DNA of 59,807 bases from Fibrobacter sp. (GTDB taxonomy: Bacteria > Fibrobacterota > Fibrobacteria > Fibrobacterales > Fibrobacteraceae). The notes beneath the pieces are model-generated. The model did no database searches. It was given only the letters and a program-made list of their open reading frames with translations, and was not told the DNA's origin. This document shows positions 7,434 to 39,533 of the stretch, one piece after another. Each line of letters starts with the position of its first letter. Positions within the stretch are counted from its first letter, which is position 1. The position numbers and the translations under genes are program-made. The DNA is taken from NCBI GenBank assembly GCA_024399015.1, contig JAKSIC010000018.1, positions 1-59,807 of the forward strand, written 5' to 3'.

Positions 7434-7437
7434 TAAA

Positions 7438-7527
7438 GCCTCCTTTTGGATTTAAAGATACCCATTCCTGAGTGCAGCGTGGTCGCTTGTGTGGCGACAA
7501 AAAACTTCCTTGACAGCTGCTGCTCAA
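7438..7527. repeat. Structured ~90 bp repeat, copy R1
   Basis: First of four copies (others at 8389, 12481 and 13743). Conserved parts are gcctcc, then aaagatacccattcc, gagtgc, a small hairpin GTCGC/GCGAC followed by AAAAAA, and cttccttgacagctg. Here it sits between the divergent 108-residue gene and the GNAT unit, supplying the leader of one and the -35 box of the other. Confidence 0.85.
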
Positions 7528-7538
7528 AAGAGTATATT
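7510..7538 (+). promoter_or_regulatory. Promoter of the GNAT unit (copy 1)
   Basis: TTGACA (7510-7515), a 17-base spacer and TATATT (7533-7538) form a near-consensus sigma70-type promoter. The -35 is the end of repeat R1. The same promoter is kept in the second copy at 12553. Confidence 0.7.
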
Positions 7539-7609
7539 TTAGGTGCAGAATTGTGTTACCTCTGCTTTCTTACATTCAAACATCAGACCGTTTATAGCGA
7601 GGTATTGAC

Positions 7610-7750
7610 ATGAAGCCCATTAGCGAAATGCTTAACCGACAGCAGAACAAAATTACTAATCGTGAAGCGGTAGAACGTATTCATTCCGACAGCATGCCAA
7701 AAACAACGCTGAAGGAAGTCGAAGTCAAACTGCCCAATTACACGAGATGA
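7610..7750 (+). CDS. 46-residue putative antitoxin upstream of GNAT protein
   Basis: A short gene starting MKPISEMLNRQQNK and ending LPNYTR, 46 residues. GAGG lies eight bases before the ATG. Its stop overlaps the GNAT start (ATGA at 7747-7750), the typical layout of an antitoxin-toxin pair. I see no ribbon-helix-helix or other DNA-binding motif, and it is much shorter than the DUF1778 antitoxins of known GNAT TA pairs, so the antitoxin role is inferred from context. An exact copy exists at 12653-12793, which supports it being a real gene. Confidence 0.6.
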   Translation: MKPISEMLNRQQNKITNREAVERIHSDSMPKTTLKEVEVKLPNYTR

Positions 7751-8376
7751 GTAATCGCCTACAAATAGAACCTGTCAACGAAAACACATTCAAAACCATA
7801 GATGTCCGAGGCTGTTTTTCCAGCCCTAAAGTCAATGATTTCCAGAGTCTTTTTGACTGTTCCTGGAATTTTGACCGTTTGGTTTTGAAGTCAAGCGAAG
7901 GAAATCGCGAACTTTTGAATTTACAAAAGAGCGGTTCTTTCAATGCATTTGCATGTATTGATGCTGAAAATGAAAGCCCGATTGCATTTTTCACCCTAGC
8001 CGCATCAACATTGTGCGTCCCAGCCCAATACCGCAAAGGTAAGGATCCTGCTTCTTGGGACTCCTTCCCTTCTATACAAATCGACTACCTTTTTGTGGAC
8101 ATGGATCTACGGAAATGCGGAGTAGGTTCTTTCATTTTAAACTGGATAAAGAAACAATCCCTTGATAGACGTTTTCAATTTGAGGCATTCCGTTTCATAT
8201 ACTTGAATTCCATCAAAACTGAGCAGGCTATAAGATTTTATAAAAAGAATGATTTTGTTTTTGCAGACTGTGATGACGAACTAGATATTGAGCAGGCTTT
8301 AAATGACGGAACCTTCTGCGACGACAAGGAAATGGTCGTTCCCATGTTCTTTGACCTGAACAGCCTCAAGCTATAA
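7747..8376 (+). CDS. GNAT-family acetyltransferase, possible toxin
   Basis: A 209-residue protein with the GNAT acetyl-CoA pattern: IDYLFVDMDLRKCGVGSFIL (about residues 115-134) includes the R-x-x-G-x-G/A type loop, followed by YLNSIKTEQAIRFYKKNDF, the usual strand-helix region where a Tyr often acts in catalysis. The longer N-terminal part (about 1-100) is not typical of the compact TacT toxins. It overlaps the 46-residue gene by four bases and shares its promoter. If a toxin, it would probably acetylate aminoacyl-tRNA like TacT or AtaT; a plain small-molecule acetyltransferase cannot be excluded. A twice-deleted copy lies at 12790-13032. Confidence 0.7.
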   Translation: MSNRLQIEPVNENTFKTIDVRGCFSSPKVNDFQSLFDCSWNFDRLVLKSSEGNRELLNLQKSGSFNAFACIDAENESPIAFFTLAASTLCVPAQYRKGKDPASWDSFPSIQIDYLFVDMDLRKCGVGSFILNWIKKQSLDRRFQFEAFRFIYLNSIKTEQAIRFYKKNDFVFADCDDELDIEQALNDGTFCDDKEMVVPMFFDLNSLKL

Positions 8377-8388
8377 TCATCAACGACA

Positions 8389-8504
8389 GCCTCCTTTTGG
8401 ATTTAAAGATACCCATTCCTGAGTGCAGCGTGGTCGCTTGTGTGGCGACACGGAAAAAGGCCGCCCTCGGGCGACAAAAAACTTCCTTGACAGCTGCTGC
8501 TCAA
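8389..8504. repeat. Structured repeat, copy R2 with internal insertion
   Basis: Same repeat as R1, directly after the GNAT stop, with a ~26-base insertion (around 8451-8475) after the GTCGC/GCGAC hairpin. The insertion carries CGCCC/GGGCG arms and, on the minus strand, a T-run, so it looks like a terminator or second hairpin. A shorter fragment, acgatagccttgaca, follows at about 8530-8545 and resembles the start of R4 joined to its end. Confidence 0.8.
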
Positions 8505-8612
8505 AGCCCAAGGCAACGCTGAAATTTCAACGATAGCCTTGACAACTAGTGCTTATATGTATAAATTTTATGCATCGACGAGCCGTCAGAACGTGCAATT
8601 GCATTTCTACAG

Positions 8613-8670
8613 GACCTCTGAGAGGGGTAAAGCCTCTCGGCTGCGCACTTAAAGCAAAATTTCGGAGGTC
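8613..8670 (+). promoter_or_regulatory. Leader able to sequester the Panacea ribosome binding site
   Basis: GACCTC (8613-8618) is complementary to GAGGTC (8665-8670), which contains the ribosome binding site three bases before the ATG at 8673. Inside is a second hairpin, GAGAGG (8620-8625) with CCTCTC (8633-8638). If folded, the mRNA hides its own Shine-Dalgarno sequence. I do not recognise a known riboswitch. Confidence 0.5.
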
Positions 8671-8672
8671 AA

Positions 8673-9116
8673 ATGTCTTATCCAGCAATACACATCGCCC
8701 AACTTCTACTGACAAAGTTTAAGGATCAGTCTCACTCGCAAGAGCTCATGACCAACCTTAAATTGCAGAAGATGCTTTACTACGAGCAGGGCTTTCATCT
8801 TGCCGCCTTCGGCACACCCCTCTTCAACGAGAGTATCGAAGCATGGATGTACGGCCCAGTTGTCCCCGCTGTTTACGAACATTTTTCCGACAAAGGTTCT
8901 AGCGGTATCGAACCCGCAGAAAACGAAATCTTCGACTTGAGCGAAGACGAAGCCACCTTGTTTAATAACGTTTTCGACGTTTACAACCAGTTCTCCGCAA
9001 CAAAACTGGTCGAAATGACACACTCTGAACCTCCCTGGTGCAATTCCGAGGTAGGAAGGGGCTGCGTTATTTCAAACGAATCCATGGAAGCGTTCTTTAA
9101 AACAAGGCTGAGCTAA
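8673..9116 (+). CDS. Panacea (SocA-like, DUF4065) domain protein
   Basis: A 147-residue protein with the hallmarks of the Panacea domain: MTNLKLQKMLYYEQGF (near residue 25-40), then ESIEAWMYGPVVPAVYEHF (about 52-70) and a C-terminal helical part with LVEMTHSEPPW. Family members are best known as antitoxins of PanAT pairs or as the SocA proteolysis adaptor. Here the following gene overlaps it (TAATG at 9114-9118) and ends like a typical antitoxin, so the Panacea protein may be the regulated partner instead. The start has GGAGG, and the leader can hide this site. A TTGACA and TATAAA-like box near 8544-8570 may be the promoter. Confidence 0.85.
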   Translation: MSYPAIHIAQLLLTKFKDQSHSQELMTNLKLQKMLYYEQGFHLAAFGTPLFNESIEAWMYGPVVPAVYEHFSDKGSSGIEPAENEIFDLSEDEATLFNNVFDVYNQFSATKLVEMTHSEPPWCNSEVGRGCVISNESMEAFFKTRLS

Positions 9117-9304
9117 TGGGCAAAAAACAATTCAACATCAAAGTTCCTGATGTCCCCACTAGCGTTTCTATAACAAAGGCTTCCGCCAGCCAGATGCTTC
9201 GAATTATGCAGGCACTATCTGCAGAAGCACAAGAAGCAGGCGTCGCCAACATGAGTCTAGATGAAATCAACGCAGAAATCGACGCCGCAAGGAAGGGAAA
9301 GTAA
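9116..9304 (+). CDS. 62-residue partner of the Panacea protein, antitoxin-like tail
   Basis: A short basic protein whose C-terminus MSLDEINAEIDAARKGK looks like the toxin-binding tail of type II antitoxins (L-x-E-I-x-x-x-I-x-x-x-R). The N-terminal half (KKQFNIKVPDVPTSVSITKAS) has no motif I can name. It is translationally coupled to the Panacea gene through TAATG. The pair is likely a TA or defence unit; which partner is toxic cannot be told from sequence. No terminator is obvious; the convergent 72-residue gene ends 12 bases away. Confidence 0.65.
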   Translation: MGKKQFNIKVPDVPTSVSITKASASQMLRIMQALSAEAQEAGVANMSLDEINAEIDAARKGK

Positions 9305-9316
9305 ATTTCCCTGGAG

Positions 9317-9535
9317 TCACTGATTTTCAATATATTCCTGATAAAGCGCCACCGGGCCGAGGTGCCACATCTTGGTGTTTTCTTGTTCCAGCTCGCTGTA
9401 GGTTTTCGAAAGATAGAGTTTTTTGAGAGCTTCTACAGGTTCAATGTTTGAATCTTCCGCAAGCATTTCAGCCATCCAGGAGAGTTTGGAAGGCAGAAGC
9501 AAGTAAAGATTTTTCTGGTTCACTTCCAAATTCAT
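9317..9535 (-). CDS. 72-residue third gene of the DUF3990 unit
   Basis: A small protein with a helical N-terminus (LLPSKLSWMAEMLAEDSNI) and the segment ALKKLYLSKTYSELEQENTK, a pattern I have seen in short proteins next to DUF3990 genes. Its ATG overlaps the DUF3990 stop (ATGA at 9535-9532). It may be an antitoxin or accessory factor. No enzymatic motif is visible. Confidence 0.6.
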   Translation of the reverse strand: MNLEVNQKNLYLLLPSKLSWMAEMLAEDSNIEPVEALKKLYLSKTYSELEQENTKMWHLGPVALYQEYIENQ

Positions 9536-10017
9536 TTTACAACCTCGGCATCGATATACTTGAGGGCCTGTAAGGCTTTTTCTGTATGGAATAGATACTG
9601 ATCGACTAGTTTATAAGTTTTCAGTTCGGCAATCAAGTTTTCCTTGTCAAGAAAGCCGCCTTCAAACAGGGCAAACGCAGCATACACGCGATCATTGGCC
9701 ACGGGGCCATACACAATATCGTAATTATGCGTATAGTTTTTTTGCGTGCGATTATTCATCACAAAATCTACCCATTCTGTTGTGGGAGTTTCAAAAACAA
9801 GGCAATTCAAATTATTCAACGCAGCATCACGGTCAAACTCATAGACATTGATATAGCCGCAGGAAGCCTTGCGTTCCGACATTCTACGCCTTACCCAATC
9901 TTCGGCCTGTTGATGAGAGGTCGTTGTGTAGAAACCATTTCCGTAATCAAGAGTTCTGCTTGGAATTCTTATTTCTGGGCTTGATACAATTTCAATACTT
10001 CCATGGAACAGTTTCAT
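9532..10017 (-). CDS. DUF3990 protein, probable ADP-ribosyltransferase-like toxin
   Basis: A 161-residue protein starting MKLFHGSIEIVSSPEI. The start at 10017 is chosen over an upstream one because GGGAGGG lies just before it and it overlaps the previous stop (ATGA). The YGNGFYTTTSHQQAEDW stretch (about residues 25-42) and the YDIVYGPVANDRVY stretch (about 97-110) are characteristic of DUF3990. As I recall, this family is related to the ADP-ribosyltransferase fold, in which HGS, a GFYTT-like strand and a late acidic residue line the NAD pocket. It lies between two short genes with overlapping starts and stops, as in a TA operon. ADP-ribosylation activity is inferred. Confidence 0.75.
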   Translation of the reverse strand: MKLFHGSIEIVSSPEIRIPSRTLDYGNGFYTTTSHQQAEDWVRRRMSERKASCGYINVYEFDRDAALNNLNCLVFETPTTEWVDFVMNNRTQKNYTHNYDIVYGPVANDRVYAAFALFEGGFLDKENLIAELKTYKLVDQYLFHTEKALQALKYIDAEVVK

Positions 10018-10238
10018 TTTGTCCCTCCCTGGCGAACCGCAATAAACTCGTCGATTTCTTCCACAAGCCATGTAGCACTTTGCGTATGCAAAACTTCAAA
10101 GTGTTCCTGCAAATATTCCAAAACGCCATACTTGTCTAAATGCTGCATAGCTTCGGCTCCAGAAATTTGCTTCGCATTCTTATACTGCTCAATACAAAAC
10201 GAAATAAAGTAAGAGATGTTTGACGTTTTTTCTTTCAT
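10014..10238 (-). CDS. DUF3791 protein, first gene of the DUF3990 unit
   Basis: A 74-residue protein with features of DUF3791: an aromatic N-terminal helix (ISYFISFCIEQYKNAKQIS), LDKYGVLEYLQEHFEVLHT with the LHT signature, and an acidic end VEEIDEFIAVR. DUF3791 genes commonly precede DUF3990 genes, so this is probably the antitoxin or regulator of the unit. The stop overlaps the DUF3990 start. Confidence 0.75.
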   Translation of the reverse strand: MKEKTSNISYFISFCIEQYKNAKQISGAEAMQHLDKYGVLEYLQEHFEVLHTQSATWLVEEIDEFIAVRQGGTK

Positions 10239-10285
10239 ACTATTCTATCCGACTTATGAAAGAAATATAAGTAAATCTTCTTAAC

Positions 10286-11128
10286 TTACCCAACCTCCAC
10301 CACAAAATCCTCCTTTTTCAGTCCATATTCCTGATAGGGATTTTCGTTCGGGTAGCCGACAGGATTGCAGAGCAGCAGGTGCTTTTTGCCTTTGCTATCC
10401 GTAATCCACTTCTTGATTGCCGTGTGGGTGTGGCCCGCTTGCCAAATGGAGCCATCGGGCATATTTTCCAGATACTTGGCTCCTGCGAAGTAAAAGAAAT
10501 TCGAGCATTCGTCATGTTTGTATCGTTCTGCCATGCCAAATTCCAGCGGCAGAAAATGAGTCATCATGATGTTTGGTTGTTGTTGCGTCAAGGATTGCAT
10601 CACTTGTTCATAATGTTGCCAAATCGCATCGGGATCGTTGCCTTTGTAATTCCAGTGGCGGCCATCAAACCAGCAGAATTTCCAGAGCGTTTTGTTCTGC
10701 GCCGCAGTCGCTCCTGGCATGTGCTTATACTCAAAGTCGCACATTCCCATGCAACCGGCAACGCCTTCTACAATGCGATTTTCAAGCAGATGAACATTAG
10801 GAATCTTTGCTACTTCGCCACAAAAGAAAGCAATCTTTTCTTCGGATGTCAAAAAATCACGGTCCTTGCCGTAGTGAGACTTTTTCTCTGTAATGATGTC
10901 GTGATTGCCAAGGCACAAATACACCTTGGCATATTTCGTGGCGATGAACTTCAAAAACTCCACATACGTAAAGTAATCGTTGGCGATATCCCCCGCAATG
11001 CAGTAGGCATCGGCTGGCAAGAAGTTCCGCTCATAGAACTGTTCAAAAGCTTTCTGCAGCGGCTCCCTGGAGCGCGTCATAGGGCTGTAGAAATCAACAT
11101 GTAGGTCACTGATAAAGTAGTATTTCAT
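10286..11128 (-). CDS. Calcineurin-like metallophosphoesterase
   Basis: A 280-residue protein with the ordered metal-binding motifs of this superfamily: SDLHVD (residues 7-12), GDIAND (about 46-51), GNHD (about 74-77), a THF near 196 and GHTHTA (about 238-243). It should hydrolyse phosphoester bonds with two bound metal ions; the substrate is unknown. It follows the RhuM-Fic gene by 12 bases on the same strand, so the two are probably co-transcribed. A phosphodiesterase that removes AMP groups or nucleotides would make sense beside a Fic enzyme, but this is inference. Confidence 0.85.
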   Translation of the reverse strand: MKYYFISDLHVDFYSPMTRSREPLQKAFEQFYERNFLPADAYCIAGDIANDYFTYVEFLKFIATKYAKVYLCLGNHDIITEKKSHYGKDRDFLTSEEKIAFFCGEVAKIPNVHLLENRIVEGVAGCMGMCDFEYKHMPGATAAQNKTLWKFCWFDGRHWNYKGNDPDAIWQHYEQVMQSLTQQQPNIMMTHFLPLEFGMAERYKHDECSNFFYFAGAKYLENMPDGSIWQAGHTHTAIKKWITDSKGKKHLLLCNPVGYPNENPYQEYGLKKEDFVVEVG

Positions 11129-11140
11129 CCTTCAAACTCC

Positions 11141-12088
11141 TTACAAACAATTCACGATAACATCCACCATGATTTCCTTCTCTTCGGGCCTGGACTCCGC
11201 AATCATAATGGTGAGAGCAACAAGTGTGGCGTCATCGATGGTCTTTTCTCCATCTTTATAGAGAGCGCCGTTCCTATCCAAAAAGTAAAGGAACATAGTG
11301 GCGGCAATACGCTTGTTCCCGTCCCAAAAACTGTGATTTTTAGTTACAAAATATAAAAGGTTGGCAGCCTTCACCTGTAACGAAGGGTAAAGTTCGATAC
11401 CGTCAAAAGTTTGATAAATGTCGCCAATGCTCCCCCTGAAAGAGTCATCCTTTTCTTTGCCAAAGACCTCCGATTTTTCTGAAAAAGTCATCTGATCGAT
11501 GACCTGCCGGCACTCCTCATAGGTCAAAACATAGGTGGGTTCATCCCCTTTTGGCCTTGCAAGGGTCTGATGATCGTAAGAATCCAGCAATTCAAGGGCT
11601 TTTCCATAATTTTCGACCACGGAAAGGACTTGCGACGCGTCAAGGGAACTTTTTGTACGCTTCAGAAGCTTTACCACCTGCCCTAAATCCTGCAAACGCT
11701 TTTGGTTTACGGCGTATCCCTTCAGCAGGTATTCCTTCAAGACGGTATTTGCCCAACGCCGGAACATGACGCCCTGCTTGCTTTTGACGCGATAGCCCAC
11801 GGAAATGATAACATCGAGGTTGTACAGGACCAGTTCAGAAACTTGCATTTTTTCTTTAATAGCACCATGAGGAGTGGTATGTGCAAATTTTGCACATACC
11901 ACTTTGGGATCAATTTCCCCTTCCTGAATGGCATTTCGAATATGGCGGCCAATTACAGTACGGTCTTTTAGAAACAATTGGGCCATTTGTTCTTGCGACA
12001 GCCAAACAGTCTCGTTTTCCAGACGAACATCAAGCCGTGTCGAGCCATCGGCCATCTCATAAATAAGAACGTTTCCTTTATTTTCCAT
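11141..12088 (-). CDS. RhuM-Fic fusion protein
   Basis: This 315-residue protein has an N-terminal RhuM-type domain (about residues 1-130: DVRLENETVWLSQEQMAQLF, DRTVIGRHI, then YNLDVIISVGYRVKS) and a C-terminal Fic/Doc domain with the catalytic HSFWDGNKR motif near residue 255. RhuM was first seen in Salmonella pathogenicity island 3; its part here looks like a DNA-binding Bro/KilA-like module. The Fic part may AMPylate or otherwise nucleotidylate a protein target. No separate antitoxin gene lies beside it; the metallophosphoesterase follows directly. The start has GGAGG six bases upstream. Confidence 0.85.
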   Translation of the reverse strand: MENKGNVLIYEMADGSTRLDVRLENETVWLSQEQMAQLFLKDRTVIGRHIRNAIQEGEIDPKVVCAKFAHTTPHGAIKEKMQVSELVLYNLDVIISVGYRVKSKQGVMFRRWANTVLKEYLLKGYAVNQKRLQDLGQVVKLLKRTKSSLDASQVLSVVENYGKALELLDSYDHQTLARPKGDEPTYVLTYEECRQVIDQMTFSEKSEVFGKEKDDSFRGSIGDIYQTFDGIELYPSLQVKAANLLYFVTKNHSFWDGNKRIAATMFLYFLDRNGALYKDGEKTIDDATLVALTIMIAESRPEEKEIMVDVIVNCL

Positions 12089-12175
12089 ATTTGCCTCCTA
12101 CGATTGCTTTTCTTGAGTTCAATTTTCAAAAGGGCATAGTTTCCCCATTGAATTTTGAACCATTTTTTTTTGCAA

Positions 12176-12205
12176 AACAAAAACACCTGATTTTCCATCA
12201 GGTGT
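12176..12205 (-). terminator. Orphan minus-strand terminator
   Basis: ACACCTGA (12183-12190) and TCAGGTGT (12198-12205) form a stem followed on the minus strand by a T-rich run. The same stem is found after the xylanase gene at 14680. No gene lies upstream of it here, so it is probably a leftover. Confidence 0.6.
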
Positions 12206-12480
12206 TCAGGAGACTATCCGTAACGCTCGGGAGGAATAGTAGCTTATTCAAGAAAATTGGCAAGAGCATTTATGTTAAGGTTTTGTAAAACCAATTATAA
12301 TTCGTAAAAGGAGATCCCCGCCTTCGCGGGGATGACATGCAAAAGGTAGCCGGGGATGACATAAGACGGAAAACGCCCTATTCCTCCCCGACCCCATGAA
12401 GGGGAATCATGTACCCGCTAGCTTTCTTGCCCAGGAACTTGTAGCTATCAAATGGGGTAGCCCTCCCTTGTGCAAGGGAA
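12206..12480. other. Intergenic stretch without a convincing gene
   Basis: I see no coding sequence here. It contains one dispersed palindrome (12310-12337) and, just before repeat R3, a short perfect inverted repeat cccttg/caaggg at about 12464-12477. Confidence 0.5.
12310..12337. repeat. Dispersed palindrome of the GGGATGACA type
   Basis: ggagatcccc, a cgccttcgcg core and ggggatgaca form a near-perfect inverted repeat. Relatives occur at 18962, 21965 (inside tilS) and 50517; all end in ATGACA. Confidence 0.7.
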
Positions 12481-12570
12481 GCCTCCTGCTGTATTCAAAG
12501 ATACCCATTCCCGAGTGCCGCGAGGTCGCCTATTGGGCGACAAAAAACTTCCTTGACAGCTGCTGCTCAA
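12481..12570. repeat. Structured repeat, copy R3
   Basis: Same repeat as R1, upstream of the second GNAT unit. The internal hairpin differs in sequence but still pairs (GTCGCC with GGCGAC), which suggests that the structure is kept. Confidence 0.85.
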
Positions 12571-12581
12571 GAGAGTATATT
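12553..12581 (+). promoter_or_regulatory. Promoter of the GNAT unit (copy 2)
   Basis: TTGACA (12553-12558), 17 bases, TATATT (12576-12581), as in copy 1. The promoter is intact although the GNAT gene behind it is damaged. Confidence 0.65.
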
Positions 12582-12652
12582 TTAGGTGCAGAAAAATGTT
12601 ACCTCTGCTTTCTTACATTCAAACATCAGACCGTTTATAGCGAGGTATTGAC

Positions 12653-12793
12653 ATGAAGCCCATTAGCGAAATGCTTAACCGACAGCAGAACAAAATTACT
12701 AATCGTGAAGCGGTAGAACGTATTCATTCCGACAGCATGCCAAAAACAACGCTGAAGGAAGTCGAAGTCAAACTGCCCAATTACACGAGATGA
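12653..12793 (+). CDS. Second copy of the 46-residue putative antitoxin
   Basis: As far as I can compare by eye, identical in sequence to 7610-7750, with the same ribosome binding site and the same four-base overlap with the next gene. It is intact while its partner is deleted, so it could act as a stand-alone antitoxin. Recent duplication is the likely reason for the identity. Confidence 0.6.
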   Translation: MKPISEMLNRQQNKITNREAVERIHSDSMPKTTLKEVEVKLPNYTR

Positions 12794-13032
12794 GTAATCG
12801 CCTACAAATAGAACCTGTCAACGAAAACACAGATCTACGGAAATGCGGAGTAGGTTCTTTATATTCCATCAAAACTGAGCAGGCTATAAGATTTTATAAA
12901 AAGAATGATTTTGTTTTTGCAGACTGTGATGACGAACTAGATATTGAGCAGGCTTTAAATGACGGAACCTTCTGCGACGACAAGGAAATGGTCGTTCCCA
13001 TGTTCTTTGACCTGAACAGCCTCAAGCTATAA
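12790..13032 (+). pseudogene. GNAT acetyltransferase copy with two in-frame deletions
   Basis: Compared with the 209-residue copy at 7747, this copy lacks 105 codons (the equivalent of 7789-8103) and a further 24 codons just after the RKCGVGS loop. Both losses keep the frame, leaving an 80-residue open reading frame with the original start and end. Most of the acetyltransferase fold is gone, so it cannot be an active GNAT enzyme. The remaining sequence looks identical to copy 1, which points to a recent duplication. A retained role for the short product cannot be excluded. Confidence 0.75.
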
Positions 13033-13035
13033 TCG

Positions 13036-13173
13036 GTCAAAGATGGTGATTTAATCGGCTATCCCGAAGAACAAGAGTACATCTTCTTGCCTTTCGCAAA
13101 GTTCAATTTCTCAAAAAATGACGTTGCTTGGAAGGGCGGTATTTGTTATATTGATTGCACGATGGAGGTTTAG
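13036..13173 (+). pseudogene. C-terminal fragment of a lost gene (possibly ADP-ribosyltransferase-like)
   Basis: Right after the deleted GNAT copy the sequence reads openly for 45 codons to a TAG: DGDLIGYPEEQEYIFLPF, then AKFNFSKND and CYIDCTMEV. There is no start codon, because the duplicated GNAT unit replaced the front. The P-E-E-Q-E-Y-I-F-L-P pattern recalls the last strand of arginine-type ADP-ribosyltransferases (E-x-E followed by hydrophobic residues and P). That identification is tentative. Confidence 0.45.
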
Positions 13174-13174
13174 T

Positions 13175-13348
13175 ATGCCGAGTCAACAATTATTAGATTT
13201 GATTGCTTTTTGCGAAACCCTCGCTCCTATTGGAGAAGGTCACAAGCCGGAGGCACGCTGGATGCCTTGGGATTGTTATGTTGCCGCGGCAAAAAAATGG
13301 AATGAAAAACATCCCGATGACCTTTGCGAAATTGGATACGAAAAATAA
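13175..13348 (+). CDS. 57-residue hypothetical protein
   Basis: A short protein starting MPSQQLLDLIAFCETLAPIG and ending CEIGYEK, with W-x-x-W-D-C-Y in the middle. GGAGG lies eight bases before the ATG at 13175, which I prefer over upstream in-frame starts. The start lies one base after the stop of the preceding gene fragment, so it was probably the second gene of that operon. TTGCTT and TATATT with 17-base spacing (13124-13152) could now drive it. A terminator follows. I do not recognise its family. Confidence 0.55.
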   Translation: MPSQQLLDLIAFCETLAPIGEGHKPEARWMPWDCYVAAAKKWNEKHPDDLCEIGYEK

Positions 13349-13378
13349 ATCGTAGCAATCTACAAGAATTTATCCACC

Positions 13379-13413
13379 AGCCCTTCCGAATGACCGGAGG
13401 GGCTATTTTATTT
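13379..13413 (+). terminator. Terminator after the 57-residue gene
   Basis: AGCCCTTCCG (13379-13388) pairs with CGGAGGGGCT (13395-13404), followed by a T-rich run. Confidence 0.7.
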
Positions 13414-13417
13414 GCCT

Positions 13418-13742
13418 ATGGCTAGAAATGGAAAAACAAAGGTCCGTGGCAAGGCTGCCAAGCAGATGTCCGCTATCGGGGATTTCATTTGGCGCCTAAA
13501 GCGCCTGGAGGAAAAAACCGTGATGCTGGAGACGCACCACGTCAACGTCGGATGGAAGGACGAGATTGTCTCCAACTTTGACGCGGATTTTGTCGGCCCC
13601 GGAATCAAGGCCGCGAGCCTGGCCACCATCGCAAAGGTTATGAACTATGGCCGCACCGGTGGAGTCGCCAAGGGCCAGCTCCAGCGCGCGATGAAGGACC
13701 GCAATGCATACGAGGCTAACGCCCCTATTACCATCCACGATA
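13418..13742 (+). pseudogene. Truncated gene resembling a phage tail or neck protein
   Basis: Starts MARNGKTKVRGKAAKQM and contains GDFIWRLKRLEEKTVMLE, VNVGWKDE and AASLATIAKVMNYGR, a layout reminiscent of HK97 gp10-like or virion-morphogenesis proteins (a basic helix, V-x-V-G-W, then an A-T-I-A-x-x-x-x-Y-G pattern). After NAPITIHD the frame runs into repeat R4, so the true C-terminus is missing. No ribosome binding site is visible at normal distance, only a terminator. I read this as a phage gene remnant cut by the repeat; the family call is a guess from pattern. Confidence 0.5.
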
Positions 13743-13827
13743 GCCTCCTTTTAATTCAAAGATACCCATTCCCGAGTGCCGCGTGGTCGCTTGTATGGCG
13801 ACAAAAAACTTCCTTGACAGCTGTCAA
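13743..13827. repeat. Structured repeat, copy R4
   Basis: Same repeat as R1, replacing the end of the phage-like gene. The GTCGC/GCGAC hairpin, AAAAAA and cttccttgacagctg are kept; downstream it diverges. Confidence 0.8.
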
Positions 13828-13961
13828 TCCGCGAGGATGCGGGACACGGTAACAAGTACTTGCAAAACCTTCTGGATTTGTGTAAATTTCATGCAAGCAT
13901 GCATTTAAAAACGGCTCGGTCATAAAAATTTATTTTACGACTCTCGCCTCCGGATAAATGA

Positions 13962-16640: not shown

Positions 16641-16723
16641 ACACCATGGTTAAAACTATTTCAAATTGGAATAAGCAACATATGGTGATCCATAGGTTGT
16701 GTGGACAAATTATCCAAGGGGTT

Positions 16724-17110
16724 TCCTAACCGGTAGATTGTCCATCAAAAAAATTTGATGCGCATTCCCGACCGGCAGATTGTGCTTCCAGGAAATTTGA
16801 CAAGCATTTCACTACTGGCAATTATGCTTCACAAAAATTTGAAGCTCATTTCTAACCGGCGGATTGCCCATCAAAAAAATTTGAAGCTCATTTCCGACCG
16901 GCGGATTGCTCTTCCAAAAAATTTGAAGCTCATTTCCAACCGGCGGATTGCCCATCAAAAAAATTTGAAGCTCATTTCCAACCGGCGGATTGCGCTTCCA
17001 AAAAAAATGATGCGCATTCCCGACCGGCGGATTGCACTTCCAAAAAAAATGACACTCATTTCCAACCGGCGGATTGCACTTCCAAAAAAATTGATGGGCA
17101 TTTCCCCGCG
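16724..17110. repeat. Array of about nine 42 bp tandem repeats
   Basis: Units of about 42 bases follow one another without spacers. Each contains aaatttgaagctcatttcc (or a close variant) and accggcggattg, ending alternately in cccatc or a cttcc form. The outer units are more diverged than the central ones. The unit length is a multiple of three, so one strand stays open (for example LKLISNRRIA repeated), but there is no ribosome binding site and the outer units decay, so I do not call a gene. It is not a CRISPR array because there are no unique spacers. Confidence 0.85.
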
Positions 17111-17436
17111 GGGAAAAGCTTTTCTGTATTACGTTGTATTACATCTGCAAAAAAGCGTGACAGAACTTTGACATTACTGTGACATTTCTCCTTTTTTCAA
17201 GAAAAATCCGATGCGTTTCATCGGCCATTTTGGACCCTTCGTCAAAAAAATTGGTGTTCCACCCCTTCAAATTTCGCTAGAAACGGCGTTTTTTGTTTCA
17301 TGACAAAACTTTGACACAATTTTGACACTTTTTCATAACCCAGCTTTGTAGATTGAAATCAAGGCCGGAACGCAACGCCACAACGGCGAAACGCCCGGCT
17401 GAAACATCAAACAACTCTCAAAACGAGGTTAATATT
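17111..17436. other. Gene-free AT-rich stretch upstream of the DUF6261 gene
   Basis: No coding sequence is seen. It contains the palindrome tttccccgcggggaaa near 17101-17116, several TTGACA-like hexamers, and a possible promoter: TTGACA at 17311-17316, 17 bases, CATAAC at 17334-17339. Confidence 0.45.
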
Positions 17437-18342: not shown

Positions 18343-18963
18343 ATGAATTTCCTAGAAGAAAAAATCCTCCGAGACGGGGTCATTAAGGAAGGCAACATCC
18401 TTAAGGTCGACAGTTTTTTGAATCATCAGATCGACGTGGACATTATGCGCCAGATGGCCTACGAATTCCAGCGTCGCTACCGTGATGTAGAAATCAACAA
18501 GATCCTTACCATCGAAGCAAGCGGTATCGCCATCGCCACCTTGCTCGGCCACCTGTACGACGTGCCGGTGGTTTTCGCCAAGAAGAGCCAGACCGCCAAC
18601 AGCACCGACGACAAGTACGTTTCCCAGGCCTACTCCTTCACCCACAAGAAAATGAACAACGTGTTCATTTCCAAGCCCTACATGTCTGCAACGGACAAGG
18701 TTCTCATTGTGGACGACTTCCTGGCGGATGGCGCTGCAGCCCACGCCCTCATTGACCTGGTTCACCAGGCAGGCGGCACCGTGGCGGGCCTCGGCATCGC
18801 CATCGAGAAGGGCCAGCAGAAGGGCGGCGCAACGCTCCGTTCCGAAGGCTACCGCGTGGAATCCATCGCCATCGTAGATTCCATGGATTGGCAGACCCAG
18901 ACCATCAAGTTCAGGGAACAGCCCGAAGTTCCGCTGAAGAACACCAATTTGAAATTAGGCTAG
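18343..18963 (+). CDS. xpt: Xanthine phosphoribosyltransferase
   Basis: A 206-residue enzyme that joins xanthine to PRPP to make XMP in purine salvage. Alignment from memory with Bacillus Xpt is continuous: NILKVDSFLNHQID near residue 18, TIEASGIAIATLL, the PRPP-binding motif VLIVDDFLADGAAA (about 125-138) and a C-terminal GYRVESIAIVDS. The start MNFLEEKI matches the usual N-terminus and lies five bases after a TAnnTTTC box, so I prefer it to in-frame ATGs at 18307 and 18316. It is followed by a nucleobase permease, as in the Bacillus xpt-pbuX operon. I see no purine riboswitch. Its TAG stop is part of a dispersed palindrome. Confidence 0.93.
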   Translation: MNFLEEKILRDGVIKEGNILKVDSFLNHQIDVDIMRQMAYEFQRRYRDVEINKILTIEASGIAIATLLGHLYDVPVVFAKKSQTANSTDDKYVSQAYSFTHKKMNNVFISKPYMSATDKVLIVDDFLADGAAAHALIDLVHQAGGTVAGLGIAIEKGQQKGGATLRSEGYRVESIAIVDSMDWQTQTIKFREQPEVPLKNTNLKLG

Positions 18964-18988
18964 ATCCTTCGCTACGCTCAGGATGACA
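18962..18988. repeat. Dispersed palindrome of the AGGATGACA type
   Basis: agatcctt, cgctacgctc, aggatgaca. It overlaps the xpt stop codon and separates xpt from pbuX. Confidence 0.65.
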
Positions 18989-21544: not shown

Positions 21545-21580
21545 GTTCGAGGCACGAGGTTCGAGGCGCGAGGCTTCAGG
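21544..21580. repeat. GGTTCGAGG-type intergenic repeat after hisI
   Basis: Short direct repeats of the form ggttcgagg / ggcacgagg follow the hisI stop. The same repeat type is seen at 27822 and at 52922. Confidence 0.65.
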
Positions 21581-21596
21581 GGTAATTTCAAAAACA

Positions 21597-22628
21597 ATGA
21601 ATATTTCGCTAGCCGACATCAAGGAGACTATCCAGCGAAATGGCTGGAAGAACTTGCTGCTGGCGGTTTCCGGTGGGTTGGACTCCATGTGTCTGGCCCA
21701 TTTCTTTATTTGCAACAAATATGCCCTGGGTATTGAATGGCTGGGGGTTGCCCACGTGCATCACGGGCTTCGAGAAGGCTCCGCCGACCTGGACGCAGAG
21801 CTGGTGGAGCAATTTGCGGAGGCCCAGGGAGTCCCCTTTTTCTTGAAGAGGCTGGACGGCGAGGCGCTCAAAGCCAGGGAAGGTTCGCTGGAGAATAATG
21901 CTCGCGAAGCAAGGTACCAGGCACTGAGATCTATTGTTTTTGAACTGCAGGATAAGAATTACTTGGATTGCCACGGCTTTCAGCCTCGCAATGACATGCA
22001 AACAGTCATCGTTACAGCCCACCATGCGGGAGACCAGGCGGAAACAGTCTACTTGAGATTGCGCCGGGGCGTCACCCTTACAGGTTTGCGGGGGATTCAG
22101 ATGGTCCGCGAAGGCCACGACGACTTCCCCGCCATTTTTCGCCCGTTCCTGAACATTTCCCGTGAAGAATTGACAAAGTACGCCAAGGACAACGATATAA
22201 ACTGGCGTGAAGACGAAAGCAATTCCGATACAAAGTTCGCCAGAAACCAGATCAGGCTCCAGGCCCTTCCCAATTTGGAAAGGGAATTTTCGGGAGCAAG
22301 CGCACAACTTTGCCGTATCGCCAAGAAGGCCGCCCCCGCCTATGAAAAGGTAATGGCCATTGCAGACAAACTATTCTCCCCCATGGTCGTTTCTACGGAA
22401 AATGGCCTCACTTTGGATACCAAAAAGGCCAAGGTTTCCCTGAAGGGGGGAATGGACGAAATTTTCCGTCTTTGGCTGGATAAACAGGGGTACCGCTTCC
22501 CCATCGGATGCTTCAAGGGCAAGGGTTTCGTAAGTGAAATCCGAAATCTATCCTACCGCACACGTTTCATCGTGAAAAACCGCCATATTATCAGGATTTA
22601 CAGCAAAAAGTCAGCAACTGACATTTAA
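21597..22628 (+). CDS. tilS: tRNA(Ile)-lysidine synthase
   Basis: A 343-residue enzyme that adds lysine to C34 of tRNA-Ile(CAU) so that it reads AUA. The PP-loop ATP site SGGLDSM is at about residues 25-31, followed by HVHHGLREGS, NNAREARYQALR, TAHHAGDQAETV and LRRGVTLTGLRG. It is shorter than E. coli TilS but has a small C-terminal domain. The start at 21597 is chosen because the upstream in-frame part only translates the hisI end and an intergenic repeat. Residues around LDCHGFQPRNDMQ look like a palindromic repeat inserted in frame. Confidence 0.9.
   Translation: MNISLADIKETIQRNGWKNLLLAVSGGLDSMCLAHFFICNKYALGIEWLGVAHVHHGLREGSADLDAELVEQFAEAQGVPFFLKRLDGEALKAREGSLENNAREARYQALRSIVFELQDKNYLDCHGFQPRNDMQTVIVTAHHAGDQAETVYLRLRRGVTLTGLRGIQMVREGHDDFPAIFRPFLNISREELTKYAKDNDINWREDESNSDTKFARNQIRLQALPNLEREFSGASAQLCRIAKKAAPAYEKVMAIADKLFSPMVVSTENGLTLDTKKAKVSLKGGMDEIFRLWLDKQGYRFPIGCFKGKGFVSEIRNLSYRTRFIVKNRHIIRIYSKKSATDI
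21965..21998. repeat. Dispersed palindrome inside tilS
   Basis: ggattgccac, ggctttcagcc, tcgcaatgaca: arms ATTGC/GCAAT and GGCT/AGCC pair. The ATTGCCACG...CGCAATGACA form is typical of intergenic dispersed palindromes; here it is translated in frame as part of TilS. Confidence 0.6.
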
Positions 22629-26568: not shown

Positions 26569-27822
26569 ATGAGCGAAAATCAGAATACTCAGAACAATCA
26601 GGACGCCCAGAAGAACAAGCGTAAAAAGAAGAACATCGCCATTCTCGTTTTAATGTTCCTTTTGCTGGTATGCCTTTTTATTGCGCAGTGCCACCTGGAC
26701 CAGATCAAGCAGGAAGCCTTGGCCAAGGAACAGGAAACCGCTCTGGAAATGCAGCGCCGTCACACCTTGGACAGCCTCCGTCAAATCGAGAAGATGCGTG
26801 CCGACAGCCTCCGCATCGCAGACTCCCTGGCAGCTATTCCCGTGGACACCGTCGTTGCCGACACCCCGAAGGTAGAACCGGTTGTGGAACCGCCGAAGCC
26901 CCGTGTGAACCGCGATAGCATCAAGCATGTTCGCGACAGCATCAAGCACGTAAACGATAGCTTGGCTGCAGTCAAGGATTCCATCGACAGAGCCAACAAG
27001 GCTATTGCCGACAGTATCGCCGCCGCAGAAAAGGCTGCTGCAGAAGAAGCCGAAAAGAAGCGCATCCAGGATAGCATCCGCAATTCCGACAAGGTTCCGC
27101 CCACAGCAGAAATCACCCCGCCGGCCGGCCGTTACTACGACCCCATCAAGCTGAAGGTGAAGTGCGACGAAATCAAGTGCAAGACCTACCTCTCCATCGG
27201 TGACACCATGAATCCCGTGGAAGCAGGCAAGGCTATGGAATACAACAAGACTGGTTCCGTATTCTACTTCGCAGAAGACTCTGTTGGCAATCGCACCCCG
27301 TGGGAAGAAGCCAAGTACGATATGGCCAGCGACAACGTTTGTGGCAAGAACGCCTACCCCGTTCCCGTGGGTGGCAAGACCGTTTGCGTAGACGCCTACG
27401 AATACCCCAACAAGGCTGACGAAAATCCGAAGGACATGGTTTCCCAGGAAGAAGCCGTGGCCCTCTGCGCCAAGGAAGGCAAGCACCTCTGCTCCATCGA
27501 TGAATGGCAGGCAGCATGCCGCGGCAAGGACAACTTCAAGTATTCATACGGTGATAGCTACCGCCAGAACAAGTGCAACACCAACACCAAGACTGCAAAG
27601 CGCAGCGGCCGTAAGGATCAGTGCCGTAGCTGGTGGGGCATGTACGACATGAACGGAAACCTCTGGGAATGGACATCCTCCCCCAGCAAGGATCATCCCA
27701 ATATGTTCCTGGTTGCAGGCGGTGCCTGGAATACCAATAACGGAAGCAAGTGTACCGAAAGCAAGTTCAGCTTCTATCCCCAGAACCAGTATCCGTCCGT
27801 GGGCTTCCGCTGCTGTAAGTAG
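26569..27822 (+). CDS. Membrane-anchored SUMF1-domain protein with DSI repeats
   Basis: A 417-residue protein. It has a short basic N-terminus, one membrane segment (about residues 26-42), a coiled-coil and linker region rich in D-S-I/L repeats (RDSIKHV, KDSIDRA, ADSIAAAE; about 70-175), a beta domain like that of chitobiase C-termini (AEITPPAGRYYDPIKLKVKC), and a C-terminal formylglycine-generating-enzyme-like (SUMF1) domain with CSIDEWQAAC, MYDMNGNLWEWTS and VGFRCCK. Its many cysteines suggest disulfides and an extracytoplasmic position. It probably binds or anchors rather than oxidises sulfatases. It is the last gene of the ftsH operon. DSI-rich linkers are frequent in Fibrobacter surface proteins. 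Confidence 0.8.
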   Translation: MSENQNTQNNQDAQKNKRKKKNIAILVLMFLLLVCLFIAQCHLDQIKQEALAKEQETALEMQRRHTLDSLRQIEKMRADSLRIADSLAAIPVDTVVADTPKVEPVVEPPKPRVNRDSIKHVRDSIKHVNDSLAAVKDSIDRANKAIADSIAAAEKAAAEEAEKKRIQDSIRNSDKVPPTAEITPPAGRYYDPIKLKVKCDEIKCKTYLSIGDTMNPVEAGKAMEYNKTGSVFYFAEDSVGNRTPWEEAKYDMASDNVCGKNAYPVPVGGKTVCVDAYEYPNKADENPKDMVSQEEAVALCAKEGKHLCSIDEWQAACRGKDNFKYSYGDSYRQNKCNTNTKTAKRSGRKDQCRSWWGMYDMNGNLWEWTSSPSKDHPNMFLVAGGAWNTNNGSKCTESKFSFYPQNQYPSVGFRCCK

Positions 27823-27848
27823 GCACGAGGTTCCAGGCTCGAGGTTCG
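27822..27848. repeat. GGTTCGAGG-type repeat after the SUMF1 gene
   Basis: aggcacgaggttccaggctc and then gaggttcgaa. It starts exactly at the TAG stop codon, as at hisI. Confidence 0.6.
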
Positions 27849-27853
27849 AAGCC

Positions 27854-28387
27854 CTATTCAAGCAGTTCTACGTGAAGGTGTTCCGCGTCGCCTTTTTCCC
27901 AAAGAACGCGGCACAGACCTTTTAGCTTATCCTCAACGCCGGTGACAATCATCCGGCGTTTTTCAATGGGGATATACTTTATACGAAAATCGATGGCCTT
28001 GTTGAAGTAGTGCTTTGAATTACGGGCATGGTAAGGATAGTCGTTTCCGCTGGTAATCACGGGAACGTAGTCATCCCCCATCACGTTGTGGAACACGTTT
28101 ACCACGATAATGCCCACGGTGTCCATGACAGGCTCCAGGCTTTCCAGGTAAACACCTTCCTTTTGACGGGTACGGCGCACCAGCAGGCGGTGCAGTTCGC
28201 GTTCGTTAAAGGGGCGGGCTTTCAAATGCTTGAGATATTCCTCGGGGGACCAGGTATCCTCCACGTATTTTGGCTCGTATTTCGGGATAGGGCGATTATT
28301 CGCCTTAATGAGGTTATACGCCCCAAAAAGCAACAAAATAGCCAATACGGGCGCCAATAAATACAAATGTTTTACAAGAAATCCCAT
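27854..28387 (-). CDS. Membrane-anchored M15-like peptidase
   Basis: A 177-residue protein starting MGFLVKHLYLLAPVLAILLL with one membrane segment and then an extracytoplasmic domain. The pattern SKHYFNKAIDFR (about residues 132-143) and AEHLHVEL at the end give the His, Asp and His zinc ligands of M15-type D-Ala-D-Ala carboxypeptidases (S-x-H-x-x-x-x-A-x-D and H-x-H). It probably trims peptidoglycan peptides. The upstream extension of the open frame overlaps the divergent lipoprotein gene and has no support. The ribosome binding site is weak. Confidence 0.7.
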   Translation of the reverse strand: MGFLVKHLYLLAPVLAILLLFGAYNLIKANNRPIPKYEPKYVEDTWSPEEYLKHLKARPFNERELHRLLVRRTRQKEGVYLESLEPVMDTVGIIVVNVFHNVMGDDYVPVITSGNDYPYHARNSKHYFNKAIDFRIKYIPIEKRRMIVTGVEDKLKGLCRVLWEKGDAEHLHVELLE

Positions 28388-36136: not shown

Positions 36137-36994
36137 CTACTTCTTCAGGAAAGCCTTGATTTCGTCAAGACGCTTCATTGCCAATTCGCGACCTTGGTCA
36201 TAGACACGCTGCAACTTCACCGGGTCACTTTCCGTACGGCCAATACCGAGGGACGCCTCCGGACACAGCACCATCACGTTGCCCTGCTTTTCCTGCTCGA
36301 AGACATAGCGGGTTTCTTCGTTATACATGATGTGACGATTTGCCACCGCATCCACCAGCTTCGGGTACTTGCGGTACACCAGGCGCATAATAGGCACCAG
36401 CTGGTTTTTCTTCTTTTCGTAGCTGCGGGGCTGAGTCAAAATCACGATATTGCGATTGAAGCCGATGGATTCAAAATACTGCAGGGGAATTGAATCCGCA
36501 ATGCCACCGTCCATGTACTTGTGGCCCTGAATGTCCACCAGTCTTGCAGCCAAAGGCATGGAGGCTGATGCGCGCATCCATTCCAGATCGTCGCCCAAAC
36601 CGTCGTTCATCTTGAAGTAAGCGGCCTCGCCCGTTTCGGCGTTGGTTGCCACCATGTGGAATTCCATGGGGTTCTTCACCAAAGCATCGTAATCGAAGGG
36701 ATCCAACACGCGGGGAATCTGCTTGTAGCAGAAATCGGCATCATAAAGGTCGCCTGTCTTGAACAAGTTACTGAAACTGCAGTAACGCTTGTCCTTGGCA
36801 AAACGAAGGTTGTAGCGGAGGGCTCGGCCCGGCTGGCGACTTTTCATGTTGCAACCAAACGCAGCACCGGCGGAAACGCCAACAGCACCGTCCACTTCAA
36901 TTCCCTGCTCCATCATCACATCGAGAATGCCGCAGGTGAAAAGGCCACGCATTGCGCCACCCTCAAGAATCAAGCCTGTCTTAATTTCGCTCAT
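36137..36994 (-). CDS. Patatin-like phospholipase
   Basis: A 285-residue lipid acyl hydrolase with the patatin dyad: LILEGGAMRGLFTCGILD (oxyanion loop, residues 8-25), GVSAGAAFG with the nucleophile Ser (about residues 39-47), and YMDGGIADS with the catalytic Asp (about 175). It is similar in layout to the E. coli YjjU type. No signal peptide is visible, so it is probably cytoplasmic. It lies between a peptide-transporter permease (gap 11 bases) and its ATPase (gap seven bases), which suggests a shared role, perhaps with lipopeptides or membrane damage. Confidence 0.88.
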   Translation of the reverse strand: MSEIKTGLILEGGAMRGLFTCGILDVMMEQGIEVDGAVGVSAGAAFGCNMKSRQPGRALRYNLRFAKDKRYCSFSNLFKTGDLYDADFCYKQIPRVLDPFDYDALVKNPMEFHMVATNAETGEAAYFKMNDGLGDDLEWMRASASMPLAARLVDIQGHKYMDGGIADSIPLQYFESIGFNRNIVILTQPRSYEKKKNQLVPIMRLVYRKYPKLVDAVANRHIMYNEETRYVFEQEKQGNVMVLCPEASLGIGRTESDPVKLQRVYDQGRELAMKRLDEIKAFLKK

Positions 36995-37005
36995 CGCCTA
37001 CCCCA

Positions 37006-38085
37006 TTAAATGTAACGGTCGCCGGACTTGGGGTCCATGGCATCACGGACACCTTCCCCAACAAAAGTGGTCAAAAGCAAAGTCACAAAAAGGGCGAGAA
37101 CAGTGCTCACGGAAATCCAAGGTGCATAAAGATTGTTCAAGCCCTGGCTCATCAGTTCGCCCCAGCTAGGTGTAGGCGGTTGCAGGCCGAAGCCCAGGAA
37201 GTCCAGAGAAGTCAAGCTACCGATACCGCCAATCAAGGTGAAGGGGAACAACGTGACCACCGGGGTCATGGCGTTGGGCAGAATTTCCTTGAAGAAAATA
37301 TGACGGTGCCCCAGGCCCAGAACCTTTGCAGACTGCACATAGGTCATGCTGCGGAGCTTCAGAAATTCGCCACGCATGTAGTAGCTGAGAGAAATCCAGT
37401 TGAAGGCAGCCATGATCAAAATCAAAAGCCAGAAGCTACGGCCATAAATACTGCCGATCAAGATCACCACATAGAGCATGGGCAGCGAAGACCAGATTTC
37501 GATAAAGCGCTGCATGCCCGTATCCCAGAACTTGCCCAAGTAACCCTGGATACCGCCAATCACAATGCCCAGGAAAGTTCCCAGCACGGTCAGCAGCAAG
37601 CTAAAGGAAATACAGATTCTAAAACCATGGATCAAGCGGGCCAGCACATCGCGGCCGTTGGCATCGGTACCCAGCCAATGTTCGCTGCTGGGAGCAAAAG
37701 GAGGAGCGCCGTCACCGCTCAGGTCCGCCTTCAGCGGGTCGTGAGCCACAGGAGGCATGATGGCCCAAGTCTCGGGGCAACCGCCTGCGCGCGGGAAACC
37801 GACCGCGGCGTCTTCTTCGCATTCTCGGACGTCGGCAAAAAGCTTGGCGTAGTCCTGCTCCGTATCGTAACTGCCCCCGAAGTCCTTTTCACTATAGCGG
37901 GCAAATGCCGGGAAATAAGTCTTGCCCTGATAACGCAGGACCAGAGGTTCGTCATTCACCGTCCAGGGGCTGGTCAGGGAAAGCAGGTAGACCACCACAA
38001 GAACAATCAAGGAATAAAACGCGCGCTTATTCTTGCGGAAGCGCTTCAAGCGGTTCTTAGTTTCTGTGGTCAAGCGAAGTTTCAT
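37006..38085 (-). CDS. Peptide ABC transporter permease, YejE type
   Basis: A 359-residue permease with an N-terminal membrane segment (about residues 20-40), a periplasmic part with NDEPLVLRYQGKTYFPAF and FGGSYDTEQDY, which is characteristic of YejE of the microcin C/peptide transporter, then five more segments with LGTDANGRDVLARLIHG and the EAA loop region near residue 250. The start at 38085 follows a TATATTGG box by six bases with no clear ribosome binding site, so the mRNA may be leaderless. It begins the operon with patatin and OppD-type ATPase. YejA and YejB are not found in the window. Confidence 0.88.
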   Translation of the reverse strand: MKLRLTTETKNRLKRFRKNKRAFYSLIVLVVVYLLSLTSPWTVNDEPLVLRYQGKTYFPAFARYSEKDFGGSYDTEQDYAKLFADVRECEEDAAVGFPRAGGCPETWAIMPPVAHDPLKADLSGDGAPPFAPSSEHWLGTDANGRDVLARLIHGFRICISFSLLLTVLGTFLGIVIGGIQGYLGKFWDTGMQRFIEIWSSLPMLYVVILIGSIYGRSFWLLILIMAAFNWISLSYYMRGEFLKLRSMTYVQSAKVLGLGHRHIFFKEILPNAMTPVVTLFPFTLIGGIGSLTSLDFLGFGLQPPTPSWGELMSQGLNNLYAPWISVSTVLALFVTLLLTTFVGEGVRDAMDPKSGDRYI

Positions 38086-38159
38086 CTTGCCCCAATATAA
38101 TAAAATAAAACGGCTCAAAATTTTTATATTACGAACCAGTACGAAAAAGGAACAACCTA

Positions 38160-39533
38160 GTGCGTAGACAAGATAACCAGCGAAATCGAGGAAACAACCC
38201 GGAGTTCAACCGAGGACTGGACGCTGAACACGCCGACGAATTCAAGGCAAATGAATCCGGAAGCAAAAAGCGTGAAGCTCGCGGAGAAAGAGGTCTCAAG
38301 GAAAACAAGGTGCAGAAAGAACGCTGCATTCTTGTGGGCATCGCCACCCCGAAAATCCGCTCCTGGCTTGCCACCGAACAACTGGCAGAACTTGGTCGAC
38401 TGGCAGAAACCGCCGGCGCTGAGGTTGTGAAAAGTTTCTTGCAACGCGTACAACAGTTTAACGCCGCCACCCTCATCGGCGAAGGCAAGGTTCACGAAAT
38501 CAAGATGGCTCTTGAGGAACTTGACGCCAAGATGGTGGTTTTCGATGACGACCTCAGTGGTTCCCAGGTGCGCAATTTGGAGCAGCGTCTGCCGGGCATC
38601 AAGGTGCTGGACCGCACCGGTTTGATTCTGGATATTTTTGCAAAGCATGCCGTCACTGCCGAAAGCCGCCTCATGGTGGAAGTGGCCCAGCTGCAGTACA
38701 TGATGCCCCGCCTCACAGGTGCATGGACTCACCTTTGCCGTCAGCATAACGGCGGTATCGGCACCAAGGGTCCTGGCGAAACCCAGTTGGAAACGGACCG
38801 TCGAATGATTCGTAAGCGAATCCAGGAACTGAAGAAAAAGCTTGAAAAGATCGAGGACGCTCGCGAAAGCCAGGCCCAGAACAGAAACGACATTTTCCAC
38901 ATGGGTATCGTGGGCTACACCAACGCAGGCAAAAGCACTTTGACAAACCGCCTTACCGGTGCAGACGTTTATGTAGAAGACAAGCTCTTCGCCACATTGG
39001 ACAGTACCACTCGTAAACTGTTCCTGGACGGCGAGAACATTATTTTGTCCGACACCGTAGGATTTATCCGCAAGCTCCCCCACAACTTGATTGAAACCTT
39101 CAAGAGTACCCTGGGTGTGGCCGCCCACGCCGACTGCATCTTGGAAGTGGTGGACGGAAGCGCCCCGGACTACCGCGAACATCTGGAAGTGACCCACAAG
39201 ACGCTGCAGGGCATTATCAGTTCCGTGACGCCGCGAATCCGCGTGTTCAACAAGGTGGAAACCTGCGACGAAGCCCGCCGTAACGAACTTCGCGAGAACT
39301 ATCCCGAAGCCATTCAGGTTAGCGCCAAGGAAAACATCGGCATGGAACTGCTCCGCAACAAGTTCAAGGAACAGCTTGAAATCTGGCACAAGAAGCGCGA
39401 ACAGCAGGCCGCACAAATCAAGGAAGTGGTGGAATCGCCGTGGCCCGCCCACCCCGCCGAAAGTGTAAACGACAACAGTTTCAACAGCAACCGGGATGAA
39501 AACTGGAAAGAACCGGGAATTTACGAAGTTTAA
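38160..39533 (+). CDS. hflX: GTPase HflX
   Basis: A 457-residue ribosome-associated GTPase. The N-terminal HflX domain has EGKVHEIKMALEELDAKMVV and DRTGLILDIFA, followed by GGIGTKGPGETQLETDRR, and the G domain has GYTNAGKSTL (G1, about residue 256), DTVGFI (G3) and NKVETC (G4-like). It probably rescues or splits stalled ribosomes. The start is GTG with AAGGA about nine bases upstream; no ATG is suitable. The first 50 residues are very charged and unlike other HflX proteins. Confidence 0.93.
   Translation: MRRQDNQRNRGNNPEFNRGLDAEHADEFKANESGSKKREARGERGLKENKVQKERCILVGIATPKIRSWLATEQLAELGRLAETAGAEVVKSFLQRVQQFNAATLIGEGKVHEIKMALEELDAKMVVFDDDLSGSQVRNLEQRLPGIKVLDRTGLILDIFAKHAVTAESRLMVEVAQLQYMMPRLTGAWTHLCRQHNGGIGTKGPGETQLETDRRMIRKRIQELKKKLEKIEDARESQAQNRNDIFHMGIVGYTNAGKSTLTNRLTGADVYVEDKLFATLDSTTRKLFLDGENIILSDTVGFIRKLPHNLIETFKSTLGVAAHADCILEVVDGSAPDYREHLEVTHKTLQGIISSVTPRIRVFNKVETCDEARRNELRENYPEAIQVSAKENIGMELLRNKFKEQLEIWHKKREQQAAQIKEVVESPWPAHPAESVNDNSFNSNRDENWKEPGIYEV

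Follow-up and report, generated by a model that had tools for sequence, protein, structure and literature searches.

The tilS gene of a Fibrobacter genome very probably carries a copy of a REP-like palindrome, CGTC-tagged or closely similar to that kind, which lies in frame and would be translated, leaving the enzyme working. The gene was studied in a stretch of 59,807 nt (hereafter the window). tilS (21597..22628, plus strand) is an intact frame encoding a tRNA(Ile)-lysidine synthetase of 343 residues. It was identified with TIGR02432 (172.6 bits; cut-off 93.6), Pfam ATP_bind_3 and an AlphaFold 2 model (mean pLDDT 84.9), for which the best PDB match was TilS 2e21.

The palindrome is located in a hypervariable segment of tilS, named site A (21927..22013, plus strand; residues 111-139). 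Site A has 29 codons here and up to 94 elsewhere. The stretch between ARYQAL and TAHH is 29 residues long, compared with 11-13 in Fibrobacter TilS with an empty site and 15 in F. intestinalis ATCC 43854. The sequence-only reading had put the length excess at about 13 residues. The excess is real, but its size is 16-18 residues over empty-site Fibrobacter TilS, and the TIGR02432 alignment placed 206 residues on 188 model positions, a surplus of 18. The solved TilS structures of Aquifex and E. coli have a gap at the insert position, which is just before the TAHHAGDQAET strand. In the AlphaFold 2 model, the palindrome-coded residues are mostly between a helix (98-118) and a strand (136-140). Residues 121-130 had a mean pLDDT of 55, the lowest block outside the C-terminus. 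The insert is predicted to be a low-confidence loop.

In the frame of tilS, the repeat core, GATTGCCACGGCTTTCAGCCTCGCAATGAC (21966..21995, plus strand), codes for DCHGFQPRND. Its left half, ATTGCCACG, and its right half, CGCAATGACA, each occur once in the window by exact search. On the plus strand, an outer stem is formed by ATTGC (21967..21971) and GCAAT (21988..21992), and an inner stem by GGCT (21975..21978) and AGCC (21982..21985). Comparison of flanks among the copies of the genome extended the element to 21960..21996 (plus strand), adding a left flank TACTTGG (family consensus TGCTT[CTG]G) and a right-hand A, so that the minus strand carries a TGTC tag. The folding energy of this single copy was unremarkable (z -0.4 to -0.9), so the case for a palindrome rests on the repeat family. 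The adjoining residues (FELQDKNY and MQ) are unaccounted for by the element. Part of the adjoining flank is common to a relative (L208) that has other repeats there, indicating that the insert has a history of more than one step. The insert boundaries are not base-exact, because the closest empty-site TilS found is only 62% identical.

The 3.34 Mb genome was matched 17 times by the pattern GATTGCCACGN{4,30}CGCAATGAC and not at all by the reversed control. The same pattern was present in 22 of 25 genomes of the genus and in 0 of 16 others; the control had no match in these 41 genomes. A looser palindrome pattern hit 52 places, chance matches among them. The family has constant outer arms, the conserved left flank, the right-hand A and hypervariable inner arms that still pair. 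In 73 distinct copies, the inner arms formed 237 of 292 pairs, compared with 149 ± 5.6 when partners were swapped; none of 2000 partner swaps reached 237. The TGTC on the minus strand was counted by eye in about 27 of 30 copies of the genome. The sequence-only reading had taken the segment for a dispersed palindrome in frame inside tilS, and the exact-arm copies, together with other copies lying between genes, bear this out. A chance look-alike within ordinary TilS length polymorphism would agree with the unexceptional folding energy of the window copy. It would not agree with arms of 10 and 9 bases found exact in 16 other copies, or with the left flank conserved among copies. The 17 exact-arm copies and the genus-restricted family with its zero control refute chance resemblance, and we give it practically no credence.

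Most copies were not called genic. In the genome sample (1.25 Mb plus loci around matches), 21 of 30 GATTGC copies and 17 of 18 GATCC copies were in this class; 9 of the 30 and 1 of the 18 were called genic, being in frame and flanked on each side by coding signal. Genic calling was based on ORFs and codon scores without a gene finder, and its thresholds were set by hand; they replaced a codon-score filter for each flank and a strict-stem filter, which missed real copies including that in tilS. Within the window, two sister repeats, GATCCCCGCCTTCGCGGGGATGAC (12313..12336) and GATCCTTCGCTACGCTCAGGATGAC (18963..18987), both on the plus strand, were not called genic. Copies are neighbours in places, for example at positions 69783 and 69824 of contig C5. 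In GATTGC copies, 4.5 of the 6 frames lacked stops on average, compared with 3.7 in shuffled copies, so many landings could be read through.

The window also contains other repeats. A minisatellite, GGTTCGAGGCACGAGGTTCGAGGCGCGAGG, is located at 21545-21575, with tilS on one side and a HisI-like gene, named by eye, on the other. It has relatives at 27821-27858 and 52925-52948, and similar ones are present inside tilS of other species. A 42-nt unit is repeated in tandem at 16723-17124. Long repeated blocks are found within 7436-13832: 7436-7735 and 12479-12778 are 95% identical, and 8207-8378 and 12863-13034 are identical.

tilS is one of many carriers in the genome. A search for other genes with the element in frame, proposed in the sequence-only reading, found eight in the sample: LigA, RibD, TopB, an RluB/RsuA-like pseudouridine synthase, an RlmL-like methyltransferase, a glycosyltransferase, a HAD-like protein and a membrane protein. 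L079, a TrmB-like methyltransferase, is a probable further carrier, though it was below the calling threshold. In another species (G004, 0.8 Mb sampled), in-frame copies were present in Dus, TruB, a LysE-type transporter, TilS, LigA and others. One match of that genome (VELVIPVLSIAGILFF, 36754-38745) was rejected as a false positive; it reads like an ordinary membrane segment. The LigA stretch before WICERKIDG had 10-44 residues in 30 genomes, 11 of them with a complete palindrome. LigA varies from species to species in a similar way to TilS, and tilS is not special. The gene for the RlmL-like methyltransferase of this genome (L088, 1025-2611) seemingly contains several different repeat-derived segments (SSDVIPAQAGIPSP, SSNVIASEAKQS and ENQSSIINHQSSII). 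RNA-modifying enzymes (TilS, RluB-like, RlmL-like, Dus and TruB) appeared over-represented among the decorated genes, which was spotted after the fact.

Orientation was analyzed in two genomes. Repeats prefer one orientation: of 121 copies from this genome and G004, 83 had GAT..ATGAC on the C-rich strand (binomial p ~5e-5). The sampled contigs of the two genomes have opposite skew, gene direction is confounded with the preference, and copies sharing descent are non-independent. In both the window and G004, tilS is on the C-rich strand, so repeats there would read in the sense direction. GC skew was negative or near zero on the plus strand in all six contigs sampled from this genome (C1, C2, C10, C12, C40 and C43), a uniformity that is unexpected for arbitrary contig orientation. 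A Y1 transposase (Y1_Tnp, PF01797) was considered as the mover and rejected. It had no match in this genome and was present in 7 of 25 genomes of the genus, and a palindrome of these types was near one of the seven Fibrobacter Y1 loci checked.

Site A was then compared across the genus. The TilS set came from same-genus genomes and from named GTDB records; most of the latter were Fibrobacter MAGs obtained from ruminants and from horse faeces. Thirteen of 54 distinct Fibrobacter TilS had an empty site A, including L209 (62% identity, the highest among the named TilS records in the table); the others had other palindromes, minisatellites or mixtures. Complete palindromes of three subtypes (GATTGC, GATCC and GATTCC) were found in 29 of 51 distinct site-A sequences, and minisatellites such as CTCGTCT or CTCATACC in 6. 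The remaining 16 had neither repeat type by the patterns used, and some of them are longer than empty sites. Complete palindromes were also present in two further TilS regions, B and C, in some species. As for the sequence-only reading, the recommended comparison with other Fibrobacter TilS revealed empty sites and the same loop holding other repeat types in other species. It had named a segment present in all Fibrobacter TilS and an element found nowhere else as grounds for giving it up; the segment is missing from the empty-site proteins, and the element recurs in the genome.

The frames stayed open throughout. TilS was 343-604 residues long in the Fibrobacter set, and no stop codon was found inside the same-genus TilS matches. 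Hairpins within coding sequences are the bypass elements of some mitochondria, and the hairpin in tilS is likewise inside coding sequence. The insert might accordingly be removed or skipped after transcription, as an intron-like element or by ribosome bypass, giving a protein without it. Skipping would lift the constraint on frame and stops, yet the Fibrobacter tilS frames examined stay open through the insert, and we consider this explanation very improbable. We infer that the insert is translated rather than skipped, that TilS is still active and that the insert is near neutral. ATA is among the codons in use, with a count of 979 in the sample.

A tree of 54 TilS, from which site A had been left out, had at least 8 changes between empty and filled and at least 23 changes of insert type. 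It was a quick tree with long branches flagged, and its counts do not separate gain from loss. They are not read as numbers of insertions, because tilS is a mosaic. Among TilS pairs with less than 85% core identity, 74 shared an exact tract of at least 40 nt; exact tracts common to diverged pairs were 40-193 nt long, at site A and elsewhere. The sharing of exact tracts by diverged pairs suggested that inserts pass between species by short-tract exchange besides insertion. This tract comparison, which is independent of the tree, showed tilS to be mosaic across Fibrobacter; we make no claim that tracts are enriched at site A. Chimeric assembly of MAGs may be a source of some shared tracts.

The history at site A could consist of many independent landings, or of few original insertions followed by short-tract recombination between species and editing in place (core exchange, tandem duplication and core deletion). 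The second possibility concerns the history, not the identity of the element. It fits the orientation of the palindromes, which was identical for all 37 complete ones at site A. It also fits L206 and L207, which are 76% identical over tilS and share about 200 nt across site A, exact except for one duplicated 24-nt unit, and L024 and L241, which have 63% core identity and 101 exact nt in common across site A. In L238 only GATCC-GGATGAC is left, like a palindrome minus its core. On the other side, different palindrome subtypes stand after different flanks, and the subtype of the window was not found at site A in any other TilS examined. Moreover, the longest exact tract overlapped site A in 18 of the 74 pairs and was elsewhere in 56, which argues for recombination along the whole gene; recombination itself creates no new repeat types. 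We regard few insertions as a serious contender, slightly short of an even chance.

The repeats might also be selected, either because the loop is diversified on purpose or because an RNA hairpin tunes translation or mRNA stability. The same TilS loop is filled repeatedly, and several other decorated genes encode RNA-modifying enzymes (RluB-like, RlmL-like, Dus and TruB), as such selection might produce. The 13 TilS without an insert, the interchangeability of minisatellites and palindromes and the weak hairpin of the window copy speak against it, and the peptides encoded by the tilS inserts had no evident common motif. Selection therefore seems improbable to us.

We thus favor a translated, tolerated palindrome copy, and its arrival can be pictured as follows. 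A repeat would arrive in tilS, and the gene would survive through an open frame and a tolerant loop. Without a stop in the frame used, the repeat would be translated and would lengthen an exposed loop of the PP-loop domain. Once long and tolerant, the loop could receive further repeats. Insert-bearing tracts might then be exchanged between species by recombination like an intergenic spacer, given an open frame. A broader proposal is that Fibrobacter housekeeping genes hold long-lived intragenic landing sites, at which repeats of several kinds come and go in frame and pass from one species to another. Such turnover, in an orientation linked to replication, would be a main origin of new protein segments in RNA-modification and DNA-maintenance enzymes. 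We put this proposal forward tentatively and consider it rather doubtful.

Non-coding repeat DNA keeps entering proteins that apparently work. The in-frame palindromes described here span a genus of gut bacteria, in a phylum other than that of Rickettsia. Tens of related species with empty, filled and refilled TilS and LigA loops make up a comparative series, which bears on two questions: by what means CGTC-type REPs spread when no transposase is known for them, and how non-coding DNA is turned into part of a working protein.

The closest known system is the CGTC-tagged REP superfamily. As described by Di Nocera et al. (2013, PMC3733652), its hallmarks are an unpaired CGTC tag at the end, often reading TGTC, a stem opening with complementary AT and a short unpaired tail that is mostly CCA; the stem has 8-9 bp and the loop 4-5 nt, and head-to-head dimers are common. 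According to the same source, these REPs are intragenic in several species, often in genes for DNA repair, tRNA synthetases and tRNA pseudouridine synthases, and no dedicated transposase has been found. A word search of its main text did not find Fibrobacter. We found no paper on repeats in Fibrobacter or on palindromes in tilS in the mostly openly accessible literature.

The window copy reads TGTC-ATTGC on the minus strand, and its first two stem positions are the complementary AT (ATTGC / GCAAT). Its tail is CCA, whereas most other copies have CGA, CAA or CTA. As with CGTC-tagged REPs, the Fibrobacter copies are many per genome, mostly between genes and some in frame within genes, and a transposase dedicated to them was likewise not found. 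The stem of the window copy differs: it has 5 + 4 pairs interrupted by an internal loop, instead of 8-9 continuous pairs, and closes on a loop of 3. Sister copies of the same genome (GATCCCGGCTCAAGGCCGGGATGAC) are compatible with 8 pairs and a 5-nt loop. Unlike CGTC-tagged REPs, several Fibrobacter core types share one set of ends, and the Fibrobacter hot spots are recurrent, with turnover from species to species. Judged by these features, the Fibrobacter elements appear to match CGTC-tagged REPs or to be very near to them. The window copy is called only CGTC-REP-like, because the interruption in its stem does not conform to the 8-9 bp rule.

The likeness to Rickettsia palindromic elements noted in the sequence-only reading holds up: in PMC3733652, RPE-6 (CGTC-1) and RPE-4 (CGTC-4) belong to the CGTC-tagged superfamily, whose tag, AT opening and CCA tail are seen in the window copy. 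The link of the Fibrobacter elements to these two is solely through that description. In-frame palindromes had already been reported in Rickettsia and in some other REP-rich genomes, and the defining trait of the Rickettsia elements, in-frame insertion in protein-coding genes, was found here in tilS and eight others, with frames read from the sequence. RPE-1, compared by description, is also a palindrome inserted in frame in housekeeping genes; R. conorii (PMC3733652) and a Fibrobacter relative both have a decorated TruB. According to the same source, RPE-1 is longer and belongs to an obligate intracellular bacterium. GTAG REPs and REPINs with RAYTs are similarly short, dispersed, non-autonomous palindromes, some of them intragenic, but they have another tag, and their Y1_Tnp domain is absent from this genome. 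What is new here is the phylum, the recurrence and turnover of intragenic hot spots within named housekeeping genes, and the mixing of palindromes and minisatellites at one site.
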